In this document: positions 43,001 through 60,060 of the stretch, piece after piece | Layout of the letters: every line of letters starts with the position of its first letter | Numbering within the stretch: position 1 is the stretch's first letter | Source: Brooklawnia cerclae | GTDB taxonomy: Bacteria > Actinomycetota > Actinomycetes > Propionibacteriales > Propionibacteriaceae | Direction of reading: 5' to 3' | Assembly: GCF_011758645.1 (NCBI RefSeq) | Contig: NZ_JAAMOZ010000001.1 | Location: 806,001-870,000 of the forward strand | Length of the DNA stretch: 64,000 nt | Made by a program: the position numbers and the translations under genes | The notes under the pieces: model-generated | Told to the model about the DNA's origin: nothing | The model's database searches: none | Seen by the model: the letters and a program-made list of their open reading frames with translations, nothing else

Positions 43001-43825
43001 ATGTCACGGGCGGCGCGCAGTGTGCAGCGCTACTGGGCCGAGCAGTTCGACCTCATGCGTAGGCTCGTTCCTGCTGTCCGGGCCCGCGAGCCGGAATCGA
43101 TCCACGATCTGCGTGCGGCCGGACGTCGGTTGAAGGCCACGGTGCGCATCTTCAGGCCGCTGCTGCGTCCCCGGCTCGCCGAGCGGCTTCTGCTCGAACT
43201 CGACTGGTACAACGCCGTGCTCGGGCGTGCCAGGGACGCGGAGGTCGTCCACGAACACATGGCCGAACTCCTGTCCGGTCATCCCGGTGCGCAACCACTC
43301 CTGGACGACTTGGCCGCCGAGCGGGAACGCCTGGCCGGAAAGGCCGACGCCATGCTGGCCACCGACCGCGTCGACCAACTCGATGACCTTGTGGAGGAAC
43401 TGACTTTCAAGCCGTGGCGGCGTGCCCTGCGCCGTGGCGGTCGAGACCCTTCACGTCGGCAGATATTGCGGCGCGTCCGGTGGGCCGAGCGGCGCGTGGG
43501 GCTGGTCTGGCGAGAAATCCCTGCTCACGAGGAGGACCGGAGAGAGTGGGAGCACCGGCTTCGTCGCAGGGCAAAGGCGGCCCGCTACGCGGCAGAGGCC
43601 GTGGCGTCGGCCAAGCATGCCGCGGATGGCAAGGCTGAACGCTATGCCCATGTTGCCGATGTACTCGGGATCGTTCAGGACTCCGTCGTCGTGGAGCTCG
43701 TCCTCGCGGGCCGTTCTGACGATCTGGCCGTAACCGCTATCGCCGAACAACGCCGCCGTTCGCAGGAGGCGGAGCGTCAGCTCGCTGACGCCGTGGAGCA
43801 GGCGCTGCCCGCATCCCTGCGGTGA
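43001..43825 (+). CDS. CHAD-domain protein
   Basis: 274 residues, almost entirely helical and rich in Arg, His and Glu. EPESIHDLRAAGRRLKATVR is the CHAD entry motif and RDAEVVHEHMAELL and RRRAKAARYAAEAV are the later conserved helices. CHAD domains bind inorganic polyphosphate and associate with polyphosphate granules. No CYTH domain is fused and no ppk or ppx lies nearby. TAGCAT (42989-42994) 6 nt upstream suggests a leaderless transcript. Confidence 0.85.
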   Translation: MSRAARSVQRYWAEQFDLMRRLVPAVRAREPESIHDLRAAGRRLKATVRIFRPLLRPRLAERLLLELDWYNAVLGRARDAEVVHEHMAELLSGHPGAQPLLDDLAAERERLAGKADAMLATDRVDQLDDLVEELTFKPWRRALRRGGRDPSRRQILRRVRWAERRVGLVWREIPAHEEDRREWEHRLRRRAKAARYAAEAVASAKHAADGKAERYAHVADVLGIVQDSVVVELVLAGRSDDLAVTAIAEQRRRSQEAERQLADAVEQALPASLR

Positions 43826-43932
43826 CAGGAATGCCTTCGCGCGGACGCCCCTGCGGCGTGGTGCGCGCACTACGATCGATATGGCAGTCCCGCCGATCCA
43901 GCATCGGGGGGACGCGGCGTCCAGGCCAGCAC

Positions 43933-43958
43933 ATCGATTCAGCCGTTATTGAATCGAT
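43933..43958 (+). promoter_or_regulatory. Dyad operator candidate before aldA
   Basis: ATCGATTCA (43933-43941) and its exact reverse complement TGAATCGAT (43950-43958) are separated by 8 nt, ending 24 nt before the aldA ATG. The site looks like a dimeric repressor target. No regulator gene is adjacent. Confidence 0.55.
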
Positions 43959-43982
43959 CCATCTGCAATGAAGGAGAAGGAC

Positions 43983-45416: not shown

Positions 45417-45439
45417 TCACACCGGTTCACGGGACGAGG

Positions 45440-45475
45440 CAGTGTGGCCCCGGCATCGGCGCCGGGGCCACACTG
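45440..45475 (+). terminator. Strong hairpin after aldA
   Basis: CAGTGTGGCCCCGGC (45440-45454) pairs perfectly with GCCGGGGCCACACTG (45461-45475) around a 6-nt loop. There is no T-tract. It probably ends aldA transcription before dedA. Confidence 0.8.
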
Positions 45476-45534
45476 TCCCGGGGGGGAACCGCCGTTAAGG
45501 TTCGTCCAAGGTTCCGGCTCATAACGTGGGTGGC

Positions 45535-46188
45535 ATGCTACCGGTTCCCCTGACTGACCCAGCGGCTCTGCTCGCAGCACTCGGCCCCTACGTGCTGATC
45601 GGTGTCTTCGTGATGGTGTTCATCGAATCAGGCTGCCTGTTCCCGTTCCTTCCCGGCGATTCGCTGCTGTTCACGGCGGCGCTGATGCACGGGCAACTCG
45701 GCATTCCGCTGTGGGCCTTGCTGGCGGTTGCGATCGGTGCCGCGTTCCTGGGCGATCAGGTCGGGTATCTGCTCGGCGCGAGACTCGGCCGGCGTCTGTT
45801 CAAACCCGAGGCTCGGATACTCAAGACCGAATACCTGGAGCGCTCCGAGCGGTTCTTCCGCAGGCACGGCGTCGCGGCGATCGTGCTGGCGCGATTCGTG
45901 CCCATCGTCCGCACGTTCACCCCTGTGTCTGCGGGAGGAGCGGGCATGGACCACCGCCGTTTCTCCATCTGGAACCTGCTGGGGGGAGTGGGCTGGGTCG
46001 TGATCATGAGCCTCGCGGGCCTGACCCTGGGATCGATCCCGTTCGTGGCCAGGCATCTCGATGTGATGGCGACCCTCATCGTCGTCGTGTCCGTACTGCC
46101 GATGGCGATCGGCGCGCTGTCCAAGTCGAGGAAGGCCACGGTGGTGGACGCGGACGATCGGGCGGCCGATGAGACTGTTGGTCGTTGA
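45535..46188 (+). CDS. DedA-family membrane protein
   Basis: 217 residues, four to five membrane segments. FIESGCLFPFLPGDSLLFTA and GAAFLGDQVGYLLGARLG are hallmark DedA regions, and RFVPIVRTFTPVSAGGAGMD holds the conserved Arg-containing loop. Family members are implicated in undecaprenyl phosphate or phospholipid flipping and proton-dependent membrane homeostasis. ATG 45535 is taken; GTG 45526 would add three residues. Its end overlaps the response regulator by 20 bases, suggesting co-transcription. Confidence 0.9.
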   Translation: MLPVPLTDPAALLAALGPYVLIGVFVMVFIESGCLFPFLPGDSLLFTAALMHGQLGIPLWALLAVAIGAAFLGDQVGYLLGARLGRRLFKPEARILKTEYLERSERFFRRHGVAAIVLARFVPIVRTFTPVSAGGAGMDHRRFSIWNLLGGVGWVVIMSLAGLTLGSIPFVARHLDVMATLIVVVSVLPMAIGALSKSRKATVVDADDRAADETVGR

Positions 46189-46861
46189 GGACAACCCCCA
46201 CCTCGCCGCGTCCCTGAAGAAGGGGCTGCAGGCCAGTGGTTTCGCCGTGGACGTGGCGCTGAACGGTGTGGACGGCGCCCACCTGGCAACGAACGAGGCC
46301 TACGACTGCATCGTCCTGGACATCATGTTGCCGAGCATGAACGGCTACGACGTGCTGAAACGAGTACGGGCGTCGGGCTGCGACGCACCGGTGCTCATGC
46401 TCACGGCCAAGGACGGCGACCTCGACCAGATCGATGCCTTCGACCTGGGAGCCGACGACTACGTGACCAAGCCGTTCGGCTTCGTCGTGCTCGTCGCCAG
46501 GATCAACGCTCTCCTGAGACGTGGTCGGACGCACCGTGCCCCCGTGCTCCAGGTCGGCGATCTGCTCCTCGACACGAGCACGAACACCGCGCGGCGGGGT
46601 GACGTCTCGATCGAACTCACCGCGAAGGAGACCTCGCTGCTGGAATACCTGATGCTGCACGAGGGCCGGATCGTCTCCAAGACCGAGTTGCTCGACCACT
46701 GCTGGGACTCCAACTACGAGGGCAGCGACAACGTCGTCGAGGTCTACGTCCACTATCTGCGTCGCAAGCTCGACGAGCCGTTCGGCGTCCACACCTTGTT
46801 CACGCGCCGCGGCGCGGGCTATCAGCTGACGGCGGGCACCGAGCCGGAAGGCGAACGATGA
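46169..46861 (+). CDS. OmpR-family response regulator
   Basis: 230 residues. The receiver domain has acidic residues Glu7/Asp8 (LLVVEDN), phosphorylation site Asp51 (VLDIMLPSMNG), Thr/Ser in MLTAKD and Lys in YVTKPFG. A C-terminal winged helix follows (LTAKETSLLEYLMLHEGRIV, VYVHYLRRKLDEPF). It overlaps its sensor kinase by 4 bases. Overlap with dedA hints that the system responds to envelope conditions, but the signal is unknown. Confidence 0.93.
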   Translation: MRLLVVEDNPHLAASLKKGLQASGFAVDVALNGVDGAHLATNEAYDCIVLDIMLPSMNGYDVLKRVRASGCDAPVLMLTAKDGDLDQIDAFDLGADDYVTKPFGFVVLVARINALLRRGRTHRAPVLQVGDLLLDTSTNTARRGDVSIELTAKETSLLEYLMLHEGRIVSKTELLDHCWDSNYEGSDNVVEVYVHYLRRKLDEPFGVHTLFTRRGAGYQLTAGTEPEGER

Positions 46862-48246
46862 GACCCGGCACGATCCGGCCCAGCGCCTCGGGGCGCATCG
46901 TGCTGGCGGGGGCCGGCGTCCAGGCCGCGATCATTCTGCTGGCAGGCATCGCTCTGGTCCTCGGCCTGCGCGTCGGGTTGGCGTCGGCCACCGAGACACT
47001 CGTGGACGACGTGACCACCAACATCATCTCGACGGCAGGCGGCTCCGGGATGGCCGCCGCGGTCGACGGGGCGGCGCGGGCGTCGACCACATCCATCGAG
47101 GTGTGCGCCCGCGACACGACCGGTCGGACGGTGAGCTCGGCCTCCGACGGGCAATGCGCCTGGCCTCCGGGTGTGCCGCAGTCCCTTCCCCCGGACGAGC
47201 AGCGTGTCTCTCCCGGCGGCACCGGGATGCTCGACTGGAATCTCACCGAGACGATCTGGCAGGTGCGGGGGACCGAACTCGACGGGAACCAGTGGACGAT
47301 CGCGGTGCGGGCGGACATGGGTGAGGACATCAGGCTGCTCAGCCTTGCCAAGCGCCTGCTACTGGTCGGCGGCGTGGCGACGTGGGCGCTGGGGACAGTC
47401 GTTCTGTGGCTCGTCGTGCGGCGATCGCTTCGTCCGGTGGCGGCGATCCGAGCCACGGTCGACCGGATACGTGCGGGCAGCGACCTGGCCGAGAGAGTGC
47501 CGGTGCCCGCGGGCTCCGACGAGATCGCGTTGCTGGCCACGACCATGAACGACATGTTGGCCCGGTTGTCACAGGCCGACACGGAGCAACGGCGCTTCCT
47601 GTCGGACGCGAGCCACGAGCTGCGGACACCGGTGGCCGTGCTGCGTACCGGACTCGAGGTCGAGGCCGAGACGGACGAGGCATTGCCGGCCGGGAGCCGA
47701 CAGGCGATCCGCGAGCTGGCGTCCCAGGCCGCCGGACTCGCGGAGCTGATCCAGTCGCTGCTCACCTTCACCAGGCTGGACGACCCCCACGCGGCGGTCG
47801 TCAGCAAGGAGATCGACCTGGACGATCTCGTCGACGGTGAGGTGAGGGACTTGCGGCTGGTGTCGTCACACCCGATCCAGCTCGTGATCGAACCTGCCAG
47901 GCTGCATGCCGATCCGACCCTGATCGGCCAGGTGGTGCGCAACCTCGTCTCGAATGCCGACCGCTTTGCTCGCACGTCGATACGGATACGGGTGACCAGC
48001 AGGGACAGCGAGTGTCTGCTCCTGGTCGACAACGACGGACCGGTGATCCCGCCGGACGATCGGGAACGCGTCTTCGGCAGGTTCGTCCAGTTGGACGACG
48101 CGCGAACCGGTGGCGGAGCGGGGCTGGGGTTGGCGATCTGTCACCGCATCTGCGAGATCCACGGCGGCGGCGTCCGCGTCACCGAAGCGCCTGACGGGTG
48201 GTGCCGGTTCGCGGTCACGCTTCCCTCCGGGGGAGCCGTCGAGTAG
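46858..48246 (+). CDS. Sensor histidine kinase
   Basis: 462 residues. Two membrane segments (about 17-42 and 160-183) enclose an extracytoplasmic sensor domain of about 115 residues. HAMP follows (LRPVAAIRATVDRIRAG), then the H-box FLSDASHELRTPVAVLR with His253, and an ATPase domain with N-box VVRNLVSNADRF, DNDGP and GGGAGLGLAICH. It phosphorylates the OmpR-type regulator encoded just before it. The input signal cannot be read from sequence. Confidence 0.93.
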   Translation: MRPGTIRPSASGRIVLAGAGVQAAIILLAGIALVLGLRVGLASATETLVDDVTTNIISTAGGSGMAAAVDGAARASTTSIEVCARDTTGRTVSSASDGQCAWPPGVPQSLPPDEQRVSPGGTGMLDWNLTETIWQVRGTELDGNQWTIAVRADMGEDIRLLSLAKRLLLVGGVATWALGTVVLWLVVRRSLRPVAAIRATVDRIRAGSDLAERVPVPAGSDEIALLATTMNDMLARLSQADTEQRRFLSDASHELRTPVAVLRTGLEVEAETDEALPAGSRQAIRELASQAAGLAELIQSLLTFTRLDDPHAAVVSKEIDLDDLVDGEVRDLRLVSSHPIQLVIEPARLHADPTLIGQVVRNLVSNADRFARTSIRIRVTSRDSECLLLVDNDGPVIPPDDRERVFGRFVQLDDARTGGGAGLGLAICHRICEIHGGGVRVTEAPDGWCRFAVTLPSGGAVE

Positions 48247-48292
48247 GGGTGCCGCCAGGGGGACCATGCTCGACGTGCCCAGGCCGGGAGCC

Positions 48293-48841
48293 TCAGCCGA
48301 GTGCCGACAGCGCCTGCTCGAAAGCCCGGTAGGCCGGGTCGTTGAAAAGCCAGAAACGGGCCTCGACGACCTCCGGGTGGTCGCGCAGCGCTTGCGTGAC
48401 CGTGGTGAGCGCGATGCGTGCGGCAGCGTCCAGCGGATAGCCGTAGACCCCGGCCGAGACAGCCGGGAAGGCGACCCTCCGGCAACCGTGCTCGGCGGCG
48501 AGCTGGATGCTGCGCCGGTAGCAGGACGCCAGCAGTTCAGGTTCGCCGTGGCGTCCGTCCCGGTAGACAGGACCGACGGTGTGGATGACGTGGGCGACCG
48601 GCAGGTCGTAGCCACCGGTGATCTTCGCATCACCGGTGTCACAGCCGCCCAGCGTGCGGCACTCGGCGAGCAGACCGGGACCGGCCGCGCGGTGAATGGC
48701 GCCGTCCACTCCGCCGCCACCCAGCAGCGTGCGGTTGGCCGCATTGACGATGGCGTCGGCCTCGGAATCGGTGGTGATATCGCCCCTGTGCAGGGTGATA
48801 CCGATGGCGTCCGGTCGTCCGGAACTGTTCGAGGTGCTCAC
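48293..48841 (-). CDS. Macro-domain protein, O-acetyl-ADP-ribose deacetylase-like
   Basis: 182 residues forming a single macro domain of the MacroD/YmdB type. [20 protein letters not shown] carries the Asn and Asp catalytic region, [10 protein letters not shown] and [20 protein letters not shown] the ADP-ribose loops. It removes ADP-ribose from proteins or deacetylates O-acetyl-ADP-ribose. The GTG start at 48841 has GGAGGAACAC before it; the frame is open upstream on the opposite strand but without conservation. It is convergent with the kinase gene. Confidence 0.9.
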
Positions 48842-48923
48842 GTGTTCCTCCGTCTCGGGATCGTGATCTGCCTCCACGGTACGGCCGAGGATCGGCGGCC
48901 GTACCAGCCCGTACCCTGATGGG

Positions 48924-49313
48924 GTGGACGAAGGAAAGTCGACGACGCGGATCCGAGTCGTGTGGATCGTGTGGCTGGCGGGCTTTCTCGTCGGCACCGG
49001 CTCACACGTCATCGATCTGGTGCTCGGCGGCATGGACGTCTACGCCGGGTTCCCTTCTCTCCTGCGCCTGTTCTGGGTGTCCCTGACACTTGTCGATCCG
49101 CTGACCGTGGTGCTGGTCGGGCTCCGCAGGCGCGCCGGGATCGTCCTCGGCGCCGTGGTCATCGTCACGGACATCGCGGTGAACTGGACCGTGTGGGCGA
49201 CCATCGGCGGCAATCCGCTGTACGGCGCCGTCAACCAGACCATCTTCGCAGCGTTCGTCCTGGTCACAGCGCCGATGCTGTGGCGGTGGTTCGCGGGCGG
49301 AGATTCGATGTAG
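48924..49313 (+). CDS. Small four-helix membrane protein of unknown function
   Basis: 129 residues with four hydrophobic segments ([74 protein letters not shown]). No named family recognised. TACCCT at 48912-48917 lies 6 nt before the GTG start, which supports expression. A copy of the 44-bp palindrome follows 19 bases after the stop codon and could end its transcript. Confidence 0.72.
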
Positions 49314-49332
49314 TGGGGCCTTCCCAGCGGTT

Positions 49333-49376
49333 CTCCTTCGAGTTGTCCCGCGAGTACCCGGGACAACTCGAAGGAG
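49333..49376. repeat. 44-bp perfect palindromic repeat, copy 2
   Basis: The 18-bp arms CTCCTTCGAGTTGTCCCG and its reverse complement are identical to copy 1 at 22437-22480; the loop is CGAGTACC (six of eight bases shared). It occupies the gap between the convergent membrane-protein and ADH genes. Flanking sequence outside the arms is not shared. Confidence 0.9.
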
Positions 49377-49394
49377 TAACCATGACATATGGCC

Positions 49395-50513
49395 CTAGGC
49401 CGACGTGCCGTCGAACAGGATGACCTGCCGCACCGCTCTTCCATCGGCGAGGGCGTCCATCGCCGCGTTGATGTCGTCCAGGGCGATGGTGGACGAGATG
49501 AGCGCGTCGACGGGTAGCTTCCCGTCCCTCCACAGCTGCGCGTAGGTCGGGATGTCGCGTGACGGCACGGCCGATCCCAGGTAGCTGCCCTGGATCGTCC
49601 GGGCTTCCGCGGTGAGGCCCAACGGGCTGATCGTCGAGTCCGCGCCTGGTGCGGGCAGCCCGACGGTGACCGTCTTGCCGCCGACGCCGGTGAGCTTGAC
49701 CGCGGTCTCGAACGCCCGCGGGTGGCCCGCTGCCTCGACGACGACGGGCACTTTCACTCCGGCATCGAGCGCCTCCTGCGGCGTGTAGACGGCAGTCGCC
49801 CCGAGCTCTGTCGCCCGTCGCAGCTTGTCGGGAAGCGCATCGACGCCGATCACTCCGCCCCTGCCGAGCGAGATCGCAGTGATGAGCGCTGCCATCCCCA
49901 CTCCGCCGAGCCCGACCACCGCGACGTCGTCCCCGACGGCCGGCGCGCCGGCGTTGATCACCGCACCACCGCCCGTGAGCACGGCACAACCCAGCACGGC
50001 CGCGACCGCAGGCGGGATATCGCTGCCCACCGGCACGATCGACCGCCGGTCGACGACGGCGTGGGTCGCGAATCCCGAGACGCCGAGGTGGTGGAACACC
50101 TTCTCGCCGTCGCGGTGCAGTCGCTCGCCCCCGGTCAGCAGCCGGCCGGCCGTGTTCGCCTCCGTGCCGGGGATGCAGGGGAGCTTGCCGTCGGTGAGGC
50201 AGTTCTTGCAGACGCCGCAGCGTGGCAGGAATGCCATGACAACGCGTTGACCAGGGTGGATGTCGTCCACACCGTCGCCGAGCTGCTCGACGATGCCCGC
50301 TGCCTCGTGCCCCAGGAGCATGGGCACCGGACGCGGCCGGTTGCCGTTGACCACGGAAAGGTCGGAATGGCATATTCCGGCGGCCTCCATGCGGACGAGT
50401 ACCTCGCCGGGCCCCGGCGGGTCGAGGTCGAGTTGGCTTATGGTGATCGGCTTCGTCTCGGCGTAGGGCCGCTCGCGTCCGATCTCTTCCAGTACCGCTC
50501 CTGTGATCTTCAT
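49395..50513 (-). CDS. Zinc-dependent alcohol dehydrogenase (class III-like)
   Basis: 372 residues of the medium-chain dehydrogenase family. The catalytic zinc ligands are seen as Cys in AAGICHSDLS, His-Glu in GHEAAG and a later Cys in VAAVLGCAVLTGGG. The structural zinc site is CGVCKNCLTDGKLPC. The Rossmann motif is VGLGGVGMAAL. It resembles S-hydroxymethyl-thiol/formaldehyde or aryl-alcohol dehydrogenases. The ATG overlaps the stop of the FmdB-like gene, and an MBL hydrolase precedes that, so the three form an operon. Substrate not assigned. Confidence 0.88.
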   Translation of the reverse strand: MKITGAVLEEIGRERPYAETKPITISQLDLDPPGPGEVLVRMEAAGICHSDLSVVNGNRPRPVPMLLGHEAAGIVEQLGDGVDDIHPGQRVVMAFLPRCGVCKNCLTDGKLPCIPGTEANTAGRLLTGGERLHRDGEKVFHHLGVSGFATHAVVDRRSIVPVGSDIPPAVAAVLGCAVLTGGGAVINAGAPAVGDDVAVVGLGGVGMAALITAISLGRGGVIGVDALPDKLRRATELGATAVYTPQEALDAGVKVPVVVEAAGHPRAFETAVKLTGVGGKTVTVGLPAPGADSTISPLGLTAEARTIQGSYLGSAVPSRDIPTYAQLWRDGKLPVDALISSTIALDDINAAMDALADGRAVRQVILFDGTSA

Positions 50514-50941
50514 CCTTGTCTCTCGCTGTCGTGCGTGTCGTGTTCGGTGGTTGATGAGGCGGCCGATGTGGCCTCGCGTACCGCTGTGGCGATGTCGTCG
50601 CCCGCGCGAAGCGGCCGTCGTGCGAAGACGCCCTCGTGTGCGAGCACGGGGCGCCGGTCTCCGGCCAACTCGGGATGCTTGTCCTCGAGCTTGTCCCGGC
50701 GGGCGGCCAGGTCGTGCCAGTGCCGGAGGGTCTCGCGGTCGCCCCGGTTGGTCTGCACCCAGGTTCTCGGCATCTGGTCCCTGGACGGGCCCGGATCGGC
50801 CAGGCCGCCGATGTTCAGTTTCGACGGCCGTCGCGCCGCGGTTCTCCCGCAAGTCGGGCAGGCGGGATCGTCGTCCGACATCGATCCGATCAGGGCCTCG
50901 AACTCGTGCCCGGACGGGCAGGCGAAGTCGTAGAGGATCAT
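50510..50941 (-). CDS. FmdB-like zinc-ribbon protein
   Basis: 143 residues. The start ILYDFACPSGHEFEALIGSM and CPTCGRTAARRPSKLNIGG form the CxxC-type zinc ribbon of the FmdB/CxxC_CXXC_SSSS family (here the first pair is reduced to C-P-S-G-H). The C-terminal 90 residues are polar and helical. FmdB proteins are suspected regulators or metal-handling factors; none is well characterised. It lies between MBL hydrolase and ADH with stop/start overlap to ADH and 7 bases after the MBL gene. Confidence 0.75.
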   Translation of the reverse strand: MILYDFACPSGHEFEALIGSMSDDDPACPTCGRTAARRPSKLNIGGLADPGPSRDQMPRTWVQTNRGDRETLRHWHDLAARRDKLEDKHPELAGDRRPVLAHEGVFARRPLRAGDDIATAVREATSAASSTTEHDTHDSERQG

Positions 50942-50948
50942 CGCCGGC

Positions 50949-51761
50949 TCACGAGTAGTAGCCGTCGGGTGCGTATCGCAGTGTCTTCTTCTGCTCCGCG
51001 TCATGGCCGAAGATCACCTCGGCACCGGTGGCGTCGGCGATGGCCCGCAGCTTCTCCACGGACTCCAGCCAGACGAGGTTGTCCCATACGATCGCGGCGC
51101 CGACCGCGGGCGGGCCCCAGCTGTCCGAGAGATAGACGGCGTCCGAGGTGAAGATCTTCGGTCCGTCGTTGTCCAGATCGAGACGCAGCGACATCGTCCC
51201 CCAGGTGTGGCCCGGCGTCTGGATCACACTGATGCCCGGCAGGATCTCCTCGTCGCCGGCGATTCCGCCGATCTCGAGCCCGTCGTAGTCCGAGACGATG
51301 TGTGCGCCCTTGCTGTAGCCGGTGATCGTCTTGACCCCCTCCAACTCGGCCGTGCTCGTGAGGATCTTGGTCTTGGCCGGATCGAACATCTTCGCGTTGG
51401 CGGCGTGGTCGAAGTGGAGATGCGACAGGACGAGGATGTCGATGTCGTCGGGCTGCAGGTCGAACTGCGCCAGCGCCGTGTCGAGGTATCCGGGGCCGTC
51501 GACCGGCTCCCGAACCGGGAAGAAGTCATGGAATCCCGTCGGCGCCCAGCGGGTCTCCCAATCGCGTGGAACCCCCGTGTCCCACAGCACCCTGCCGTCG
51601 GGATGCTCGATGAGCACGGCGTGAGTGGGGCAATCGCCCCAGACAACGGGATCGTCGCGGTGGTGGCGATCCCGTATCGTCTTGCCGCCCTTCAGGAGCA
51701 GCCATGTCAGATCCGTCTCCATGACTCCGGTCGACAGGATGTGAACCGTCATCTGTGTCAT
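50949..51761 (-). CDS. Metallo-beta-lactamase-fold hydrolase, N-acyl homoserine lactonase family
   Basis: 270 residues. The dinuclear zinc motif SHLHFDHA is complete (His114, His116, Asp118, His119); further ligands are in [11 protein letters not shown] and FTSDAVYL. The order and spacing match AHL lactonase-family (AttM/AiiA-like) hydrolases, though many members act on other lactones or thioesters. GGGAGG lies 7 nt before ATG 51761. As first gene of an operon with FmdB-like and ADH genes it could process a lactone or ester whose product is then oxidised. Confidence 0.85.
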
Positions 51762-52127
51762 CGCAACCTCCCTGTTGCGTGAGCAGCGCCTCTTCCGGTG
51801 CTGTTCGCCATGACCACGACGCCTGCTGGTGGGCCTGTGAAGACAACGGCCATCGTGGCCATTCCTTGGTCGGATCATAACCGCTGCGGGCGGGGCGAGA
51901 GCCGCATCCGCGAGGAATCGGTTGTGACAGGCCCGGACGAAGGGCAGCCGCACATGATGATCCGGACACGCTGAGTGCATGAGAATCGACGGAGAAGAAG
52001 GGGCGGAGGTGCCGCCGCCCCGCCACCCCCAGAGGGGCAACGGCACCTCCGCTTGAGATGCCTCTCCCGCATTCGGGTATTCCCCCCGTGTTTCTCCTAT
52101 ACGGGAGAGGCTGCTGTTGGCCGGCTG
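51762..52127. other. 366-bp intergenic region between MBL operon and HTH gene
   Basis: No gene seen. It must contain the promoter of the leftward MBL-FmdB-ADH operon near 51762-51880 and the terminator of the leftward HTH gene at 52003-52052. ATAACCG at 51888 is the only A/T-rich patch. Confidence 0.5.
52003..52052 (-). terminator. Composite hairpin after the leftward HTH gene
   Basis: GCGGAGGTGCCG (52003-52014) pairs with CGGCACCTCCGC (52041-52052); an inner CCCC-AGA-GGGG stem lies at 52027-52037. In the minus direction it is followed by CCCTTCTTCTCC, a pyrimidine-rich tract, consistent with termination. Confidence 0.7.
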
Positions 52128-52376
52128 CTAGGCAGCCGGGTCGAGGTTGGTTTCCGTCTCGTCCACGATGAGTTCCACAAGTTGGTCGATCGAGAGGCTG
52201 AAAGCGATGCATGCGCCGGCGATGAAGTTGCTCGTTGGCGACTGCCGACGGTCGCGGACGCGTTGATAGGTGCTTTTCGACACCCCGATCGCACGGGCCA
52301 TCGCGTCGTCGGTGTCGATCCCGCTGGTTTCCTGTGCATCCTGCAGGACTCCGGACCGGACCATCACTCGAGCCAT
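52128..52376 (-). CDS. Small XRE-like HTH regulator
   Basis: 82 residues. The central segment TDDAMARAIGVSKSTYQRVR followed by DRRQSPTSNFIAGACIAF is a helix-turn-helix of phage-repressor style, with a C-terminal helix LSIDQLVELIVDE probably for dimerisation. ATG 52376 has GAGGGGGCGGC upstream. It is divergent from a second HTH gene across a gap with three matching inverted repeats, the layout of a cI/cro-like switch. Confidence 0.78.
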   Translation of the reverse strand: MARVMVRSGVLQDAQETSGIDTDDAMARAIGVSKSTYQRVRDRRQSPTSNFIAGACIAFSLSIDQLVELIVDETETNLDPAA

Positions 52377-52394
52377 GTCTGCCGCCCCCTCGTG

Positions 52395-52483
52395 GTTGCA
52401 ATCGGCAACATCACGTGCTATTTGCAACAATATCCGCGTCGAAATTAGGTGTCAACAGGACAACGCATGTTGCGTTATGCAAC
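52395..52483. promoter_or_regulatory. Array of three GTTGC-N5-GCAAC operator candidates
   Basis: Site 1 is at 52395-52409 (GTTGC-aatcg-GCAAC). Site 2 at 52414-52428 is imperfect (CGTGC-tattt-GCAAC). Site 3 at 52469-52483 (GTTGC-gttat-GCAAC) extends to 7-bp arms ATGTTGC/GCAACAT. Sites 1 and 2 are 19 bp apart centre to centre, near the start of the leftward gene; site 3 overlaps the rightward promoter. Confidence 0.75.
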
Positions 52484-52505
52484 ATAGTTCACTAACCTCT
52501 GGGTC

Positions 52506-52979
52506 ATGAACTCGATTCAGTGGCTCCGTCAGGTGGCGCCGGAGGCGGCGAACGGGGCGATCGCCGCGCGGGCCGGACTCACCAGGTCGACCCTCAACCG
52601 GCAAATTGCGCAGGGCGAACTCAAGCCCGAGGTAGTGGTTGCTGTCGCGCGCGCATACGGCAAGCCGGTCCTTGAGGGTCTGGTCTCCTGCGGGTTCATC
52701 ACCGAGAAGGAGGCCGCACTCAAGGAGCGGATGGGTCTGGAGGAGGTATTGGCGGCGGCGACGGACGAGCAACTGTTGCGCGCCATTCTCGACCGGGTGG
52801 GTGCTGACGGGCAGGTCCATCACCCGCTGTTCGACGAGCCGCTCGACAGCGAGCACATACCCACGATGATGGGCGCTCGTGAGGAACGGCGTCGCCGCTT
52901 GACCGCGGACGCGCAGCCGACCGAGTGGGCTGCGCGGGAGGGCGAGATCCTCCATCCCGCCGATCCCGATTCGGCATAG
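52506..52979 (+). CDS. Phage-repressor-like HTH protein
   Basis: 157 residues. The first 60 residues hold a helix-turn-helix (GAIAARAGLTRSTLNRQIAQ) and KPEVVVAVARAYGKPVLEGL. The rest is a polar helical region of unknown type. It directly precedes an ImmA-like metalloprotease gene, as repressor/anti-repressor pairs of ICEBs1-type elements do. TAACCT at 52493-52498 is 7 nt before the ATG. It is the probable repressor cleaved by ImmA. Confidence 0.78.
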   Translation: MNSIQWLRQVAPEAANGAIAARAGLTRSTLNRQIAQGELKPEVVVAVARAYGKPVLEGLVSCGFITEKEAALKERMGLEEVLAAATDEQLLRAILDRVGADGQVHHPLFDEPLDSEHIPTMMGAREERRRRLTADAQPTEWAAREGEILHPADPDSA

Positions 52980-53010
52980 AACTGTCGGTCCGTCACGACA
53001 GACTGGGGCC

Positions 53011-53424
53011 ATGGTGGACCCTGTTATGCCAGAGGGCTGGCGGCTCGACGTCGAGAGGCTGCCGTCGGGCCTTGGACGTTGCATTTGGTCGCAGCGACGT
53101 ATCGTCCTCGACTCGAGGCTCACGCCTGCCCAACGTCGTTGCACGCTCGCGCACGAGATTCTCCACGCCCGGCGTGGCCCGTTTCCGAACTGGCGGTTGG
53201 CGCGGGAAGAAGCGATCATCAGCGCAACCGTTGCCAGGATGCTGATCCCAATGCCTGCGCTTCTGGACGCCGTCGCATGGTCGCGGCAACCGGTGGAGTT
53301 GGCCGAGGTGCTCGGCGTTGATCTCGATACGCTGCGGCTCCGTATCAGTTCGCTCGCCTCATCGGAGCAGGCGCAGCTAGCGACGGCGCTGGATTCGTGT
53401 GGTCCCGAGCTCATGTGCGCCTAG
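53011..53424 (+). CDS. ImmA/IrrE-family metallo-endopeptidase
   Basis: 137 residues. TLAHEILHARRGPF carries the HExxH zinc motif (His48, Glu49, His52), and EEAIISATVARMLIP supplies the third helix found in this family. ImmA proteases cleave a partner repressor after DNA damage or other signals. The preceding HTH protein is the likely substrate. CAGACT at 52999-53004 is 6 nt before the ATG. No integrase, excisionase or conjugation gene is adjacent, so this is either a domesticated switch or the remnant of a mobile element. Confidence 0.85.
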   Translation: MVDPVMPEGWRLDVERLPSGLGRCIWSQRRIVLDSRLTPAQRRCTLAHEILHARRGPFPNWRLAREEAIISATVARMLIPMPALLDAVAWSRQPVELAEVLGVDLDTLRLRISSLASSEQAQLATALDSCGPELMCA

Positions 53425-53652
53425 GGCCAGGTCGCCGCTCCGATGGGGAGGGGCGACCAAGTGGGAGAGTTCCTCGTTGTATGCGTTCTGGACGCCGGAA
53501 CCGGGAATTATTGAATAACCGGACTTCTCCGGTATATCTCGATCGCTACCGCGCGCCGAGCTGTCGTCCGGAAACGAATCATGCGGTCGGCGCGGACACT
53601 AGAATCAGCGTTCAGGAGGGACCGTTATTCGCTCAATCTCAAAGGAGAGATC

Positions 53653-55677
53653 GTGAATACGAAAACTGAATGGAGGCTGCTTTTCGAGCCTACCCGCGTC
53701 GGCAGCATTGCGGTGAAGAACCGCTATGCGATGGGCCCGATGGGGCCCTTGGGGCTGGCGACGCCCGGGGGTGGCTGGAGCCCTCGGGGAATCGAGTACT
53801 ACGTCCGACGCGCGCAGGGTGGCGTCGGTCTGATCATCACCGGTGTGTGCCAGGTCACGAATCCCGCCGAGCATCTGCCCGCGGGAGCGCTGCCCAATCC
53901 GGTGCTGAACCCCGCGGAGTTTCTCTCGACCTCGCGAGAACTGACCGAGCGCGTGCACGCTTACGGCGCGAAGATCGTGTTCCAGGCGGGTGCCGGGTTC
54001 GGGCGGGTCATCGTCCCAGGCATGGTTCCGCATGGCAGCGCTCCCGTGGCGCCCTCGGCCATCCCGTATCGCTGGGATCCCTCGGTCACCTGCCGCGAGA
54101 TGACCACGGACGAGATCCACGCCGTGGTCGGCAATTTCCGGGCGACGGGCGCACTGGCCAAAGCGGCCGGATTCGATGGCATCCAGGTGCATGCGGTCCA
54201 CGAGGGATATCTGCTCGACCAGTTCGCGATCGAGTTCTACAACCATCGCACCGACGAATACGGCGGATCGCTGGAGAACAGGCTGCGTTTCGCCACCGAG
54301 ATCGCTAGCGCCATACACGCCGGTGCCGGGGACGAGTATCCCGTGCAGCTGCGCTATTCGTTGCGATCGATGGTCAAGGATTGGGGCGTCGGCGCGCTGC
54401 CCGACGAGGATTTCGTCGAGCGAGGGCGTGACACCGAGGAGGGGATCGCTGCGGCGAGAATGCTGCACGACGCCGGCTACGAGGTGCTGGACGTCGACGC
54501 CGGCACCTACGACTCGTGGTTCTGGAACCATCCGCCGATGTACCAGAAGAAGGGCCTCTTCCTGCCGTTCGCCAAAGTACTGAAGGAGGCATGTCCCGAC
54601 ATTCCGCTCATCGTCGCGGGACGCCTCGACGATCCCGACCTCGCGGCTTCGGCCGTGCGCGACGGCATCGTCGACATGGTCAGTCTGGCCAGGCCGTTGC
54701 TGGCGGATCCCGACATCGTGCGGAAGATCGAGAGCGGGCATCCCGAGGCCGTTCGCCCGTGCCTCAGCTGCCAGGAGGGATGCATCGGACGCATCGAGCA
54801 CTATGTGTCGCTGCGGTGTGCGGTCAACCCGATGACCGCGCGTGAGCGCGAGTATCAGCTGGTCGCGGTGCAGCCGCGCAACGCGAAGCGCGTCCTCATC
54901 GTGGGTGGCGGTCTGGCGGGCATGGAGGCGGCGCGCGTACTGGCCGTCCGTGGGCACACTCCTGTCATCCACGAGAAGGCGGAACGCCTCGGCGGCGTCG
55001 TCATCGCGGGCGGGCAGCCCTCGTTCAAGGAAGATGACCTGGCACTGATCGCCTGGTACGAGCGCGAACTGCAGTCGCTGGGGGTCGAGGTGCACCTCGG
55101 CGACGCGGTGCACCCGGGTGACTTCGATCCGCAACAGTGGGATCACGTCATCCTGGCATCGGGCTCGGTTCCCAACCGCTTGCCCGTCCCGGGTGCGGAG
55201 CGCGCGATCGACGCGTGCGATGCGTTGCTGGAACAGGATTCGCTCGGTCACGATGTCGCCATCATCGGCGGGGGACTGACCGGTTGTGAGCTGGGGCTGT
55301 CGCTGCGCGAGAGGAACCACAACGTCACGATCGTGGAGATGCTCGACGACGTGCTGGAGAAGAACAGCCCGCTGTGCATGGCCAACGAGTCGATGCTGCA
55401 CGAGATGGTCCACGCCACCGCGGGCATCGGGGTTGCGACGAAGGCCCGCGTCTCGGCGATCGGGAGTTCCGACATCTCCGTCGACACTCCGGCCGGGCCC
55501 CAGCGGGTCGCGGCGGACTCGGTGGTGACGGCGATCGGGTATCGTCCGAACACCGAACTCGTCGAGGCCATCCGTGACAGTGGCATCCCGTTCAACGTGA
55601 TAGGGGACGCACGTAGGTGCGCCAACATCATGTATGCGATCTGGGACGCCTTCGAGGTCGCTTCCCATCTGGAGTGA
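53653..55677 (+). CDS. Multidomain NADH:flavin oxidoreductase (OYE/2,4-dienoyl-CoA reductase type)
   Basis: 674 residues. The N-terminal old yellow enzyme TIM barrel binds FMN (NRYAMGPMGPLG; GFDGIQVHAVHEGYLLDQF with the active-site His pair in a variant form). A 4Fe-4S ligand set lies at Cys370, Cys373, Cys377 and Cys389 (CLSCQEGCIGR...RC). The C-terminal half is a FAD/NAD(P) domain with VGGGLAGMEAARVL and IIGGGLTGCELGLSL. Such enzymes (FadH, BaiCD, trimethylamine dehydrogenase relatives) reduce enoyl or enone substrates. GTG 53653 follows AAAGGAGAG. A second flavoprotein gene follows after 205 bases. Confidence 0.88.
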   Translation: MNTKTEWRLLFEPTRVGSIAVKNRYAMGPMGPLGLATPGGGWSPRGIEYYVRRAQGGVGLIITGVCQVTNPAEHLPAGALPNPVLNPAEFLSTSRELTERVHAYGAKIVFQAGAGFGRVIVPGMVPHGSAPVAPSAIPYRWDPSVTCREMTTDEIHAVVGNFRATGALAKAAGFDGIQVHAVHEGYLLDQFAIEFYNHRTDEYGGSLENRLRFATEIASAIHAGAGDEYPVQLRYSLRSMVKDWGVGALPDEDFVERGRDTEEGIAAARMLHDAGYEVLDVDAGTYDSWFWNHPPMYQKKGLFLPFAKVLKEACPDIPLIVAGRLDDPDLAASAVRDGIVDMVSLARPLLADPDIVRKIESGHPEAVRPCLSCQEGCIGRIEHYVSLRCAVNPMTAREREYQLVAVQPRNAKRVLIVGGGLAGMEAARVLAVRGHTPVIHEKAERLGGVVIAGGQPSFKEDDLALIAWYERELQSLGVEVHLGDAVHPGDFDPQQWDHVILASGSVPNRLPVPGAERAIDACDALLEQDSLGHDVAIIGGGLTGCELGLSLRERNHNVTIVEMLDDVLEKNSPLCMANESMLHEMVHATAGIGVATKARVSAIGSSDISVDTPAGPQRVAADSVVTAIGYRPNTELVEAIRDSGIPFNVIGDARRCANIMYAIWDAFEVASHLE

Positions 55678-55882
55678 GGACGGGGCGGTCGGCTCGGTGC
55701 GGGGGCCGGCCGCCTCTTCGTCCCTCACCGAGGAGGACAGCGGACCTGTGCCGGGCGCGGGCCTCGCGTCCATGGCGAGCGCGGCTTTCCGCGGGCCCCT
55801 TTCCTCAATTAGCCCGCCCGGGTCGAGCACGACGTATTACGGTTGCTGTGCCGCTGGCATGCCTGATCGATAGGAGAAGCTC

Positions 55883-57264
55883 ATGCGGGTTGTGATCATC
55901 GGTGGCTCGCACGCAGGGATCTCCTGCGCGCTGCGCGTGCGTGAGGAGTATCCGGACGCCGAGGTCGTCATGTACGAAAGCCAGGGCTCGATCGGTTTCA
56001 TCGCGCAGTCAATACCGCTGTACCTGCGCGGGGACAAGCATTTCGAGAAGCTCAAGAGCTACACCGACGTCCCCGCCCTGGAGCGGCATGGTGTCGTCGT
56101 GCGCATCAACACCGAGATCCGCGGCGTCGACACCGATGCCAAGACGCTCGAGGTCGTGCCCGCGGGTGGCGTCCAGTTCACCGACCGCTACGACAAGCTC
56201 GTCCTGGCGACCGGATCCTACCCGTCGATCCCGTTGGCCTTCGGCTCATACCGCGATTCGCTCTATCTCGTGAAGAACTACGAGCACGCCACGCGCATCA
56301 AGGAACTCATGGAGAGCGCGAAACGCATCGTGATCATCGGCGGCGGGGCTATCGGTGTCGAGGTCGCCCGAGCGCTGCTCCACAAGAACGTGCCGACCAC
56401 ACTCCTGCAGTCGCATGCGACCATTCTCGACCGCTACGTCGACGACGAGGTGAACATCGACATCATCGACTCGCTTCGCAGTGCGGGGCTTGACGTCCAT
56501 ACCGAAGCCCTCGTCACGGAGTTCGAAGAGGTGCTGGGCCCCGATGGTCGGCGCCAGGTCATGGCCAAGACCTCCGACGGCCGGGCGTTCAGTGGGGACG
56601 GGATCATCTACGCCACAGGCTTCCGCCCCAACTCCTTCCTCCTCGGGGGCAAAGCCGAGTTGGGCGACAAGGGCGCGATTGTCGTCGACGACTACATGCG
56701 CACATCGATCCCGGACGTGTTCGCCGTAGGTGATTGCTCGACGACGAACCTCACCAACGTCGCCCGGCCCGTGTACGTCCCGCACGCCTCCGACGCGTTC
56801 CGCCAGGGTGAGATCGCCGCGATCAACCTGGTGGGCCCTCGCCAGAAGATCAACCCTTCGCAGGGCACCTACAACCTCAACATCGGTTCGCGCACGATGT
56901 GCATCTCGGGAATCACTTACAAGCGCGCGATCGAAGAGGGGTTGACGCAGAGATTGCCTCCTACCGCAACGAGTTCCTCGACATCGACGACCTCCTGCCA
57001 CGCGCAGACAGCGACGAGGACCCCTACTACAAGGTTTGGCTCGTCTACGAGAAGGGGACTCACAAGGTTCTCGGGTTCCAACTCCGCGGTACGGCGACCG
57101 ACCTGTCACCGTACGCCGATCTCATGTCACTGGCGATCGAGCGCGGTCTGACCGTCGAGGACCTGGAGTTCGTCGATTTCTACTTCAGACAGGGATACGC
57201 GGACCCACGTTCCTTCTCGAAGTACCTGGCCGCGGTCGTCCGCCAGCAGGACCCGAGGGTGTGA
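55883..57264 (+). pseudogene. NADH oxidase/CoA-disulfide reductase-like flavoprotein, frameshifted
   Basis: The first frame (55883 to about 56941) gives a pyridine nucleotide-disulphide oxidoreductase: VVIIGGSHAGISCA at the start, VIIGGGAIGVEVARALL and VFAVGDCST. Homologous sequence continues in the -1 frame from 56942 (VDAEIASYRNEFLDID to the stop at 57264), so one base is missing, most simply from the G-run at 56938-56941. Repaired, it would have about 460 residues, full family length. The redox Cys of Nox/CoADR (S-F-x-S-C-G) is replaced by Gln42 in GFIAQSIPLYL. TGA overlaps the next GTG. Sequencing error, true mutation or recoding are all possible. Confidence 0.85.
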
Positions 57265-57944
57265 TCGCCCTGGCCACGGTACCGACCTCCAGCACGGATC
57301 GCGACTACCTGGTCGCGACCCTGGACGCGTTACGGCGTCTCGAGGACGTCGGCAAGGCTCGCGGCGACCTGGACCGTGATCTCGAGCGCCGGACGCAGCA
57401 CCGCCGCACGCTCGTCTCCGCGCTCGTAGCCGCGGTCATCCCGATCGGTATCTGGGTGTTCTTCGTCGCGGCCCAGGTCGCCGCCGCCCGCAGCCTCACC
57501 GAGGGCCTGAACATGCTCGCGGTGAGGTCCATAGGGCTCGTCGGGGCGACTGTGCTGCTCTTCCTCGTCGTGTACATCATCTGCAACTGGCTGTGGCATT
57601 CGACCGCCGTGACGCGGCTGCGGGCCGTCGTTGAGAAGCCGGTGCGCGCGGACTACCTGCGTCTGCGTGACGCGCTCGACGTGAGGTCGGAGGCGATCCT
57701 CGCCGAACCCGTCTTCGCCGACCCGCGGATCCCGGCGAACTTCATCCACCCGCACACGGTCGCCCTGCTCCTGCGGTTCTTCGACTCGGGTCAGGCGACC
57801 TTCCTCGACGCCGCCCTCTACATGCTCCGCCAAGAGATGGCGAACACCGTCTACTACAGCCAGATTGTGCCGGCCGAAACCGCGGCCGATCGTGAGCGCG
57901 AGCGCATCGCCGTCAACCGGCGGGAGATCGCCGACCATGACTGA
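57261..57944 (+). CDS. Membrane protein of unknown function in the glycosyltransferase operon
   Basis: 227 residues. A charged, probably coiled N-terminal helix (LDALRRLEDVGKARGDLDRD) precedes two membrane segments (about 53-75 and 90-112), and the C-terminal half is a soluble helical domain ending in charged residues. No family recognised. The GTG overlaps the stop of the flavoprotein gene (GTGA), and its 3' end overlaps the PgaD-like gene by 8 bases. Position suggests a part in export or regulation of the polymer made by the glycosyltransferase. Confidence 0.72.
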   Translation: MIALATVPTSSTDRDYLVATLDALRRLEDVGKARGDLDRDLERRTQHRRTLVSALVAAVIPIGIWVFFVAAQVAAARSLTEGLNMLAVRSIGLVGATVLLFLVVYIICNWLWHSTAVTRLRAVVEKPVRADYLRLRDALDVRSEAILAEPVFADPRIPANFIHPHTVALLLRFFDSGQATFLDAALYMLRQEMANTVYYSQIVPAETAADRERERIAVNRREIADHD

Positions 57945-58531
57945 AGACCTTGTGCCGTCCCCGGACGGGTCGCCCGTCAACGACACCGACGCCGTTCGGA
58001 TCAGCCCCGATCCGAGCGGCAAGGACCTGGTGGTCGAGGGCTTCGTCCACGACGCGTTCTTCGAGCGCGGCCACCCGTGGCTCAAGGTTCGCCAGACGTT
58101 GGTGGCCCTGGCGTTCTGGTTCATCCTGCTCGCGCCCATCGTCGTCCTCATCAACTCCGTGGGCCGCGATGTCAGGTGGGGAGGGTATCTACCGCTGGAC
58201 CTACGCCGACGGCTACGAACTGGTCCGGTTCCTCCTCATCGCGATCGCGATCATCTTCGTCGTCGTCCTCGGCTTCAGCATCTACCTGCTGTTGCGCAAC
58301 AACCATCGCGAGAAGAAGGTCTACCCCTATCGCAAAACCTACGACGAGGAGGGCCTCGTCAAGCGCAAGGCGATTCTCGAGACCATGTACGCCGAGCGTT
58401 TCGGCGACGAGGACGCACGGCACGGGACCCGCTACTACGTCGTCGCGCCCGAGCAGAATCTCGACACCGGATACGTACACGACCTCTTCCGCCGGGGCCA
58501 GACCGATGTCGGTGAGGAGGTGCACCGGTGA
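57937..58531 (+). pseudogene. PgaD-like membrane protein, frameshifted
   Basis: Starts MTEDLVPSPDG in one frame with the first membrane helix (TLVALAFWFILLAPIVVLI), then continues in the +1 frame from about 58182 (GIYRWTYADGYELVRF, second helix LLIAIAIIFVVVLGFSIYLL, then a cytoplasmic tail). One surplus base, most simply a G in the run at 58178-58181, accounts for it; repaired, the protein has 197 residues. Two helices with charged tails next to a PgaC-like synthase fit PgaD, the subunit needed for polysaccharide polymerisation. The name is by topology and context, not strong sequence identity. Confidence 0.65.
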
Positions 58532-59883
58532 TCGGTGAGGCCATCGCCGCGTTCGTCGAGTGGGCGCAGACGTTCTTCTTCACCCCTCTGGCCATCGTGC
58601 TGTCGCTGTTCCCGATCATGGGCGCGATCTCCTGGACGATCGGTGGGTGGTTCTACCGCTTCTTCTACGTCGGCAAGTTCACCGAGAAGAGTTTCCGGCC
58701 GGTGCCATCCGAGGAGCAGCCCTTCATCACGATCATGGTTCCCGCGCACAACGAGGAAGTCATGATCGAGGAGACCATCGACTACCTGATGAACGATCTC
58801 AGGTACGACAACTACGAGGTGCTTGTCTGCGATGACGGGTCGAAGGACACGACCCCGGACATCCTCGCCCGCCTGTCGGTGAAGTACGACCGGCTGCGCG
58901 TGCTGCGGATCGACAAGAACAAGGGCAAAGCCCACGCGTTCAACATCGGTGTGGGGTTCGCGCGCGGGGAGTTCATCCTCTCCAACGACGCGGACACTGT
59001 GCCCGAGCCCGACGCCCTGTGGAAGTACATGAACTACTTCTTGGCCCCCGGCGGGCAGGACACGGCTGCCGTCACCGCGAACATGGACGTGCAGAACCGT
59101 TCTCTCATCGTCGAGAAATCCCAGACCGTCGAGTTCTCCTCCATCGTCGGCATCATCAAGCGATCCCAGATCGGGGTGCTCGGCAACATGTACGCCTACT
59201 CGGGCGCCAACACGATGTACCGCAAGGACGCTCTGATCGACGTCGGGCTGTTCCGCCAGGACCGCGCGACCGAGGACATCTCCATCTGCTGGGATCAGCA
59301 GTACGCCGGATGGAAGGCCGACTTCGCACCGGACATCATGTTCTACATGAACGTGCCCAACACGTTCACGATGCTCTACAACCAGCGCAGGCGCTGGGCG
59401 AAGGGCGGCACCGAGTCGTGGGTGACGAACTTCAAACGCGTCGCTAAGCACCCGCTGCTCAACCTGCCGAAGGTCGTCATGCTCCTCGACCAGACCGGGT
59501 CGATCACCTGGAGCTTCTACTACCTCGCCTTCACGCTGTGGCTCGCGTTGCGGATCGTTTTCTTCGTCCTGACAGGTGACACCGAGCAGTTCGAGCACAC
59601 CCTGGACATGGTGTTCGTCTTCAGCGCGTTCATCACCGTCGTCGGGTCGTGGCAGATCGTTGCGGCGCTGTGGCTCGACAACCACGGCGCCAAGATGAAG
59701 TACCTCTTCTTCGCCCCCGCCTACATGGCCTGGTACTGGCAGATGAACGCGATCACCGTGGCGACGACCTTCGTGCCGGCCATCAAGGGCGTCCTCGGGT
59801 TCAGCGCCGAGGGCACCTGGGTGAGCCCGGAGCGGACCAAGATGGGGCAGGGGAAGCCCGCGGGCGAGCTGGTCTCGCGCTGA
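58528..59883 (+). CDS. Processive family 2 glycosyltransferase, PgaC/IcaA-like
   Basis: 451 residues. An N-terminal membrane helix precedes a GT-A domain with all processive-synthase motifs: VPAHNEE, CDDGSKD (101-107), NDADTVPE with DxD-like Asp154-Ala-Asp156, TED (248-250, catalytic base) and QRRRWAKGG (QxxRW at 286-290). Three to four C-terminal membrane helices follow. It is expected to build and extrude a beta-linked polysaccharide, such as poly-N-acetylglucosamine. No deacetylase (PgaB/IcaB) or outer export gene is nearby. The GTG overlaps the preceding stop. Confidence 0.88.
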   Translation: MIGEAIAAFVEWAQTFFFTPLAIVLSLFPIMGAISWTIGGWFYRFFYVGKFTEKSFRPVPSEEQPFITIMVPAHNEEVMIEETIDYLMNDLRYDNYEVLVCDDGSKDTTPDILARLSVKYDRLRVLRIDKNKGKAHAFNIGVGFARGEFILSNDADTVPEPDALWKYMNYFLAPGGQDTAAVTANMDVQNRSLIVEKSQTVEFSSIVGIIKRSQIGVLGNMYAYSGANTMYRKDALIDVGLFRQDRATEDISICWDQQYAGWKADFAPDIMFYMNVPNTFTMLYNQRRRWAKGGTESWVTNFKRVAKHPLLNLPKVVMLLDQTGSITWSFYYLAFTLWLALRIVFFVLTGDTEQFEHTLDMVFVFSAFITVVGSWQIVAALWLDNHGAKMKYLFFAPAYMAWYWQMNAITVATTFVPAIKGVLGFSAEGTWVSPERTKMGQGKPAGELVSR

Positions 59884-59986
59884 TGCCGGGCGTCCCAGGG
59901 GGATGGCTGCGCACCTCGGGCAGGCTGTTGTTCGACCAGGTCTGTCCCCGAGGCCCGCTCGTGCCGAGGACGACGGCGGACCGTTG

Positions 59987-60060
59987 TGGGGCGTGCGGGG
60001 CTCGAACCCGCGACCCAGGGATTATGAGTCCCCTGCTCTAACCGGCTGAGCTAACGCCCC
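59987..60060 (-). tRNA. tRNA with CAT anticodon (elongator Met or Ile2)
   Basis: Minus strand: GGGGCGT/ACGCCCC acceptor, TAGCTCAGCCGGTTAGAGCA D-arm, GACTCATAATC anticodon loop, GGTTCGAGCCC T-arm, discriminator A. CCA is not encoded. It lacks the initiator hallmark pairing. Met and lysidine-modified Ile2 cannot be separated with certainty by eye. Confidence 0.93.

Follow-up and report, generated by a model that had tools for sequence, protein, structure and literature searches.

The processive GT2 synthases PgaC of Escherichia coli and IcaA of Staphylococcus are each accompanied by a small two-helix partner, PgaD and IcaD respectively. A comparable arrangement has been described in Lactobacillus acidophilus. 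The gts operon comprises gtsA, gtsB and pdeB only, and the three genes are co-transcribed; GtsA, with two membrane helices, and the GT2 protein GtsB raise exopolysaccharide and biofilm formation in E. coli, and PdeB is a degenerate, catalytically dead EAL protein that binds cyclic di-GMP (c-di-GMP) (PMC6123363). Here we describe an operon in the actinobacterium Brooklawnia cerclae in which a synthase pair of this kind is joined to a NADH oxidase (NOX)-type flavoprotein without the redox cysteine, here called NOX*, and to a membrane protein of no known family, here called MP2. The window, the whole 64,000-nucleotide stretch that was analysed, covers positions 806001–870000 of contig 1 of the genome (G000; 3.79 Mb, 6 contigs). 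The operon contains the following genes.

55883–57264, plus strand: NOX*, NOX-type FAD flavoprotein without redox cysteine; broken by a one-base frame change near 56940
57261–57944, plus strand: MP2, membrane protein of no known family; intact
57937–58531, plus strand: PgaD-like or GtsA-like two-helix synthase subunit; interrupted near 58175 by a one-base frame change
58528–59883, plus strand: GtsB or PgaC-like processive GT2 synthase; intact and complete

The operon resembles gts in that a two-helix membrane subunit is followed by a GT2 synthase, beside a degenerate enzyme. The receptor in gts is a c-di-GMP-binding EAL protein, whereas here that place would be taken by a cysteine-less NOX-type flavoprotein together with MP2. 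An earlier note, made from the sequence alone, had proposed four joined genes. Their starts and coordinates, the overlaps of 4, 8 and 4 bases and the intact synthase were confirmed, but the frames of NOX* and the PgaD-like subunit proved to be broken. The operon is real and conserved, and as far as we searched it is undescribed: the arrangement was not found in the open-access literature, searched by title, start of abstract and text passages, with subscription papers lying outside the search.

Conservation and co-divergence of the four genes

A collection of species genomes was scanned with the synthase, yielding 27 loci. All four genes, in the fixed order NOX*, MP2, PgaD-like subunit, synthase, are present in 12 of these (L021–L031 and L035), which come from both Actinomycetota (Propionicicella, Actinomyces, Promicromonosporaceae and Cellulomonadaceae) and Bacillota (Lactococcus, Enterococcus, Pilibacter, Leuconostoc and a Streptococcaceae). 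A thirteenth genome carries the four genes split over contigs: its locus, L044, starts inside the synthase at a contig end, and a second contig carries the missing synthase start together with the remaining three genes. Three further loci (L032–L034) have MP2 and the synthase pair and no flavoprotein of the NOX* type, L032 with two copies of MP2, and profile searches found neither NOX* nor MP2 in the remaining 11 loci or in two plasmid loci. Leaving aside the truncated L044, every synthase locus in which NOX* was seen therefore also has MP2 (12 loci), whereas three loci have MP2 by itself. Distance matrices of the four proteins across the 12 complete loci correlate at 0.86–0.92, although the related sequences are not independent. 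These results bear out the suggestion that flavoprotein, MP2, PgaD-like subunit and synthase form a unit. The earlier note would have been refuted by a neighbourhood that varies among relatives, with the flavoprotein never conserved beside the synthase; the 12 complete loci show otherwise.

The overlaps in the window are identical in the two closest relatives that the scan yielded, Propionicicella superfundia (L021) and a metagenome-assembled genome of Actinomyces (L022). In the other ten complete loci the junctions vary; with starts as chosen, the extremes are an overlap of 47 bases and a gap of 149 bases. Seven Bacillota loci (L024, L026–L030 and L044) have a small membrane protein of about 85–135 amino acids downstream of the synthase, for which no family was found in the one member scanned. 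Beyond the operon genes and this one, none recurs at a fixed place beside the synthase.

An unrooted synthase tree of 28 rows, from which the partial L044 and L046 sequences were excluded, splits at 100/100 support into branches of 17 and 11 rows, and the sets of regulatory genes differ between them. The larger branch holds 13 NOX*-MP2 loci, the window included, three with MP2 and one with neither (L038); the smaller holds nine with neither and two of the EAL type, and no MP2. All loci in which NOX* was seen next to the synthase fall on the MP2 branch. Lactococcus taiwanensis has both kinds of locus, L030 with NOX* and MP2 and L047 with an EAL gene after the synthase; among the 27 loci, the L. 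reuteri EAL protein matches L047 only.

MP2 was also sought in three overlapping genome samples. It was present in 1 of 394 genomes of the window's class (its own), in 3 of 395 of the order of the L024 genome (two strong matches, one weak), and in 5 of 348 of the corresponding phylum (one strong, four weak, the best weak match at E = 6.8e-7). The strong matches come from three genomes in all samples, every one of which has the operon. The four weak ones have no match to GtsA-like proteins, to GT2 proteins of this family or to NOX within about 1.5 kb.

The names of three of the carriers (L024, L027 and L031) mark them as termite-gut bacteria, and a fourth (L023) bears a sample code that stands for the termite Neocapritermes taracua (PMC7024585). 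Viral contigs contained no NOX*; they yielded one weak match and two GtsAB-type synthases, beside which the profiles detected neither NOX* nor MP2. Separately, the open reading frames just upstream of the flavoprotein in Pilibacter termitis (L027, 102–6677) resemble phage tail and lysis genes by eye.

Properties of the four proteins

The window NOX* matches Pfam Pyr_redox_2 with 178.4 bits (E = 2.8e-52), and its C-terminal piece matches Pyr_redox_dim at E = 3.4e-4, under the cut-off of that family. The pieces are 87–92% identical to L021 and L022 by tblastn. In the relatives the protein is of full-length NADH-oxidase type, the best PDB sequence for the L021 protein being 5er0 (E = 3.5e-62). 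The match to NADH oxidases and CoA-disulfide reductases (PDB 5er0, 2bc0 and 2cdu) spans the whole length, and H10 and the FAD aspartate D284 are kept in 19 of 19 proteins that have glutamine at the redox position. By sequence, the FAD- and NAD-binding fold appears to be retained. Unlike these enzymes, NOX* is linked to a polysaccharide synthase and has glutamine in place of the redox Cys42, in all 13 operonic homologues as well as in the window's own frame; four of four ordinary NOX proteins compared have cysteine there. A C42A mutant of NOX had less than 10% activity (PMC5293585). Two other cysteines are new relative to the seven sequences compared. Cys285, in 19 of 19 Gln-type proteins and none of those seven, adjoins the aspartate of the FAD-ribityl motif; Cys15, in 13 of 13 operonic NOX* and none of 13 others, lies just past the first glycine motif. 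The loss of Cys42 is easier to reconcile with a receptor than with an ordinary oxidase.

When 395 Lactobacillales genomes were searched with a NOX profile, two operonic proteins scored 765–811 bits and six others 502–521 bits; these six also have Gln42. All other matches scored at most 350 bits, and the four of these that were read have Cys42. The operonic, second Gln-type and cysteine-type proteins form separate groups in a tree, with support of 99/98, 98/99 and 96/97 respectively. Support for a single loss of Cys42 is not firm: both Gln-type branches join at 81/67 only. A special NADPH site or dead nucleotide site, suggested by glutamine or histidine at the end of the NAD-binding strand, was considered and dropped.

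MP2 has about 225 residues. In its AlphaFold2 model (mean predicted local distance difference test score, pLDDT, 83.4) a long helix extends into the membrane and forms a transmembrane hairpin with another helix, and the C-terminal domain is helical; the two helices are assigned to the membrane from their sequence. Searches with 16 members gave nothing better than E = 0.0027 in Pfam, and matches in NCBIfam were all below cut-off. Against the PDB the best sequence match was at E = 0.043, and Foldseek gave none at E ≤ 0.001.

The synthase keeps D103 and the DxD, TED and QxxRW motifs, which are invariant in 25 sequences, and its ratio of non-synonymous to synonymous substitution rates (dN/dS) against L021 and L022 is 0.08–0.14. 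Its best NCBIfam match is TIGR03937, PgaC_IcaA, with 295.9 bits for the window and 305.3 bits for L024, both under the cut-off of 422.3, and it is only 30–33% identical to annotated PgaC and IcaA proteins (best 20 of 708 plasmid records). The small subunit is similarly distant from PgaD: the L021 protein scores 17.9 bits with TIGR03940, under the cut-off of 31.45, three other PgaD-like proteins have no match to it at E ≤ 0.01, and those of L024, L033 and L043 have none to Pfam PgaD at E ≤ 0.1. The model of the PgaD-like protein is poor (pLDDT 71), and it gave no PDB fold match at E ≤ 0.001.

Closer homologues are encoded on an L. reuteri plasmid (L082), where GGDEF, GtsA-like, GT2 and EAL genes stand together, the GGDEF gene on the opposite strand. 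The plasmid GT2 protein is 53.6% identical to the window synthase. Its GtsA-like neighbour matches the PgaD-like proteins of L021 and L022 at E = 8e-19 and 2e-19 respectively (blastp), and scores 121 bits with a PgaD-like profile of 26 relatives. On sequence grounds, therefore, the pair belongs with the GtsA/GtsB-like pairs of lactobacilli and not with true PgaCD or IcaAD; the naming rests on gene order and on homology to the plasmid proteins, which were compared in place of the L. acidophilus proteins themselves.

The earlier note had regarded the lack of deacetylase and export genes as an oddity. Gram-positive bacteria need no outer-membrane export, and no polysaccharide deacetylase of family PF01522 was found anywhere in the window genome. 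For two four-gene genomes, those of L024 and L044, the position of PF01522 could be established, and it is encoded on contigs other than those with the flavoprotein and MP2. The absence is not peculiar to this operon, since the gts operon consists of its three genes only (PMC6123363). One published survey of such operons describes icaB clades from Gram-positive bacteria, namely in Bacillus and Lactococcus (PMC7112194).

Frame breaks and surroundings of the window operon

The first NOX* frame (55883–57151) is nonsense beyond about 56940, and the C-terminus is encoded in a second frame (56899–57264). The PgaD-like frame starting at 57937 is broken near 58175, and its second half continues in another frame to 58531. 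Alignment of the DNA with L021 and L022 shows that one base has been lost at the NOX* break and one gained at the PgaD-like break. Past the breaks, dN/dS against these two relatives is 0.11 for NOX* and 0.15–0.24 for the PgaD-like gene. As the sequence beyond both breaks is still conserved, the breaks are either recent or local sequencing errors, and the latter are possible. Eight other window genes, chosen as coding among matches to open reading frames of congeners, are each covered in one frame, and the two matching open reading frames that are split between frames are both antisense to such genes. All ten neighbouring open reading frames searched match a Pfam family at E ≤ 0.001, one of them below its cut-off. 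An error-ridden assembly is therefore not indicated. Programmed frameshifting was rejected, because in L021 and L022 the corresponding frames run straight through both break sites.

Two further sets of genes in the window were considered as parts of the system.

52506–53424: helix-turn-helix (HTH)/ImmA pair; real genes
53653–55677: Old Yellow Enzyme (OYE)-type enzyme gene; real gene

When the 27 synthase loci, with flanks of at most 10 kb that are shorter in several cases, were searched by tblastn, no HTH or ImmA match was found. The OYE enzyme gave four partial, weak matches, of which three are the NOX-like genes themselves; the fourth, in L022, is a different gene that lies over 6 kb away from NOX. 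Both the enzyme and the putative ImmA switch were accordingly dismissed as components.

Four congeneric regions of 19.5 kb each (L050–L053) were compared with the window. Rightward of about 60.3–60.4 kb there is a stretch common to all four, and from about 42.6 kb to the tRNA-Met gene (59986–60060) there is no match in any of them. L052 is the only one to match the tRNA gene and, leftward of 42.6 kb, some parts of the window. A tRNA-Met island with attachment repeats was rejected: a 25-base stretch of the tRNA gene has no second copy in the window with up to three mismatches, so only a variable region beside the tRNA gene is shown. The GC content of the operon is 63.7%, against 65–69% around it. 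A close synthase was found neither in seven congeners nor in 13 further family members, the matches listed being partial and 24–38% identical, and the window synthase is 92–95% identical to records named as two different genera. Together these results point to horizontal acquisition. The window holds a copy, probably broken recently in this strain, of what would be a mobile four-gene operon.

The same variable region (42600–60000) contains genes for CHAD, aldehyde dehydrogenase, VTT, two-component system, macro-domain, alcohol dehydrogenase, zinc-ribbon and metallo-hydrolase proteins. Elsewhere in the window a palindrome with two 18-base arms and an 8-base centre occurs twice (22437–22480 and 49333–49376), with an ATG shortly after each copy. 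Its arms gave four matches, against none in shuffled sequences; it may be an operator or a hairpin.

Proposed control of the synthase

We tentatively read the operon as a conserved regulatory variant of a GtsAB/PgaCD-like synthase, in which a pseudo-oxidase serves as redox receptor and acts through MP2, although our confidence falls somewhat short of even. GtsB and GtsA would polymerise and extrude an exopolysaccharide, most likely a polymer of the N-acetylglucosamine type, and MP2 would be a membrane adaptor attached to this pair. NOX*, presumably keeping its FAD and pyridine-nucleotide fold without the catalytic cysteine, would sense NAD(P)H or oxygen through the flavin and relay the signal via MP2, thereby switching the synthase. 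In this role NOX* would fill the place of the dead EAL receptor in gts, which supports the proposal as a precedent for an inactive enzyme serving as receptor beside GtsAB (PMC6123363). The most economical interpretation gives GtsAB different regulatory inputs: in some lactobacilli a dead EAL receptor for c-di-GMP, and here MP2 with or without NOX*. A more specific version, which we consider rather doubtful, is that the synthase is gated by a redox pseudo-enzyme, a counterpart of the c-di-GMP receptors, whose thiols now lie at Cys285 and Cys15, both in FAD-holding motifs, and which acts through MP2 as a new adaptor family; the second Gln-type branch would then serve a surface protein.

Control by c-di-GMP in the window genome was rejected, as it has no GGDEF or EAL family match. 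Of the 14 four-gene genomes, 11 lack matches to these families over cut-off. The same holds for seven of nine genomes with bare gts genes and three of three with MP2 only, so the lack is not specific to the NOX* type and is permissive evidence only; a strict link between NOX* and the absence of c-di-GMP was dropped for this reason. Three bare-gts genomes (G052, G053 and G061) have GGDEF matches below cut-off. Transcriptional control by Rex was also rejected, since 12 upstream regions contain no site beyond those in shuffled sequences.

These last observations weigh against the redox-receptor proposal, and several others do so too. The relatives were found through the synthase, so their co-occurrence is conditioned on it. 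The second Gln42 branch (L070–L075, in six of the 395 Lactobacillales genomes) has no adjoining synthase. Its gene is instead followed directly by a large surface-protein gene, homologous in six of six loci (tblastn, query locus included) and with a Pfam LPXTG anchor in three of four proteins scanned, so that such flavoproteins have other partners. In two Enterococcus genomes, bare GtsAB genes lie 5–8 kb from a distant cysteine-less flavoprotein, with serine at position 42, on the opposite strand.

L037, 3088–4383, minus strand: distant cysteine-less flavoprotein, 188 bits
L045, 17477–18832, minus strand: distant cysteine-less flavoprotein, 140 bits

The residue at the end of the NAD-binding strand is uninformative, because ordinary NOX proteins (L067 and L068) likewise have glutamine there. 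MP2 evolves fast (dN/dS 0.28–0.35), and the N-terminal part of the PgaD-like gene has a dN/dS of 0.64–0.67 between the window and its relatives, against 0.28 between the relatives.

NOX* might instead be an active enzyme that, without Cys42, reduces oxygen only to H2O2 or uses NAD(P)H to reduce quinone or supply the polymer machinery with electrons, the H2O2 or electrons acting on the polymer or on competitors. Cysteine-less NOX mutants form H2O2, H10 and the FAD motifs are invariant, and the gene is under purifying selection (dN/dS 0.11–0.15 against L021 and L022). We nevertheless think this unlikely: no polymer of this family is known to carry a group needing such an enzyme, and neither the presence of MP2 nor the distribution of regulatory genes over the synthase tree would be explained. 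Nor do we give much weight to mere co-expression, in which NOX* would be a housekeeping enzyme of oxygen or redox metabolism, needed together with the synthase in micro-oxic, surface-attached life and having no physical or allosteric link to it. The termite-gut origin of some carriers and a gap of up to 102 bases between NOX* and MP2 in some loci agree with it. However, NOX-type proteins are common in the order (359 of 395 genomes at E ≤ 1e-40), yet the operon keeps the cysteine-less one in 13 of 13 cases, and no synthase locus showed NOX* without MP2.

That the operon is an ordinary PgaCD or IcaAD operon for poly-N-acetylglucosamine (PNAG), with the flavoprotein a chance neighbour, is very improbable. 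PgaC_IcaA is indeed the top NCBIfam match of the synthase, but the family cut-offs and low identity led us to reject a plain PNAG operon, the flavoprotein is conserved beside the synthase in two phyla, and the window genome lacks PF01522. A different matter is whether the window copy itself is a decaying remnant without present function, which is somewhat more likely than not and is compatible with the other readings as applied to its relatives. Two frame breaks within 4 kb, the variable region beside tRNA-Met, the lack of a close synthase in the congeners and the lower GC content all favour decay; the conservation past both breaks tells against it and implies that the breaks are recent or are sequencing errors.

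Of the 26 genomes with GtsAB-type synthases that were examined, 21 contain no GGDEF match over cut-off. The flavoprotein and its putative adaptor are a specific candidate through which redox state or oxygen could control a surface polymer directly, and several carriers live along the oxygen gradient of the termite gut. MP2 is in neither of the family libraries searched (Pfam and NCBIfam), and Lactococcus taiwanensis, with L030 and L047, offers a natural side-by-side comparison of NOX*-MP2-type and EAL-type loci. If the redox-receptor reading is true, the NADH-oxidase fold would here have been put to a new use as a receptor.

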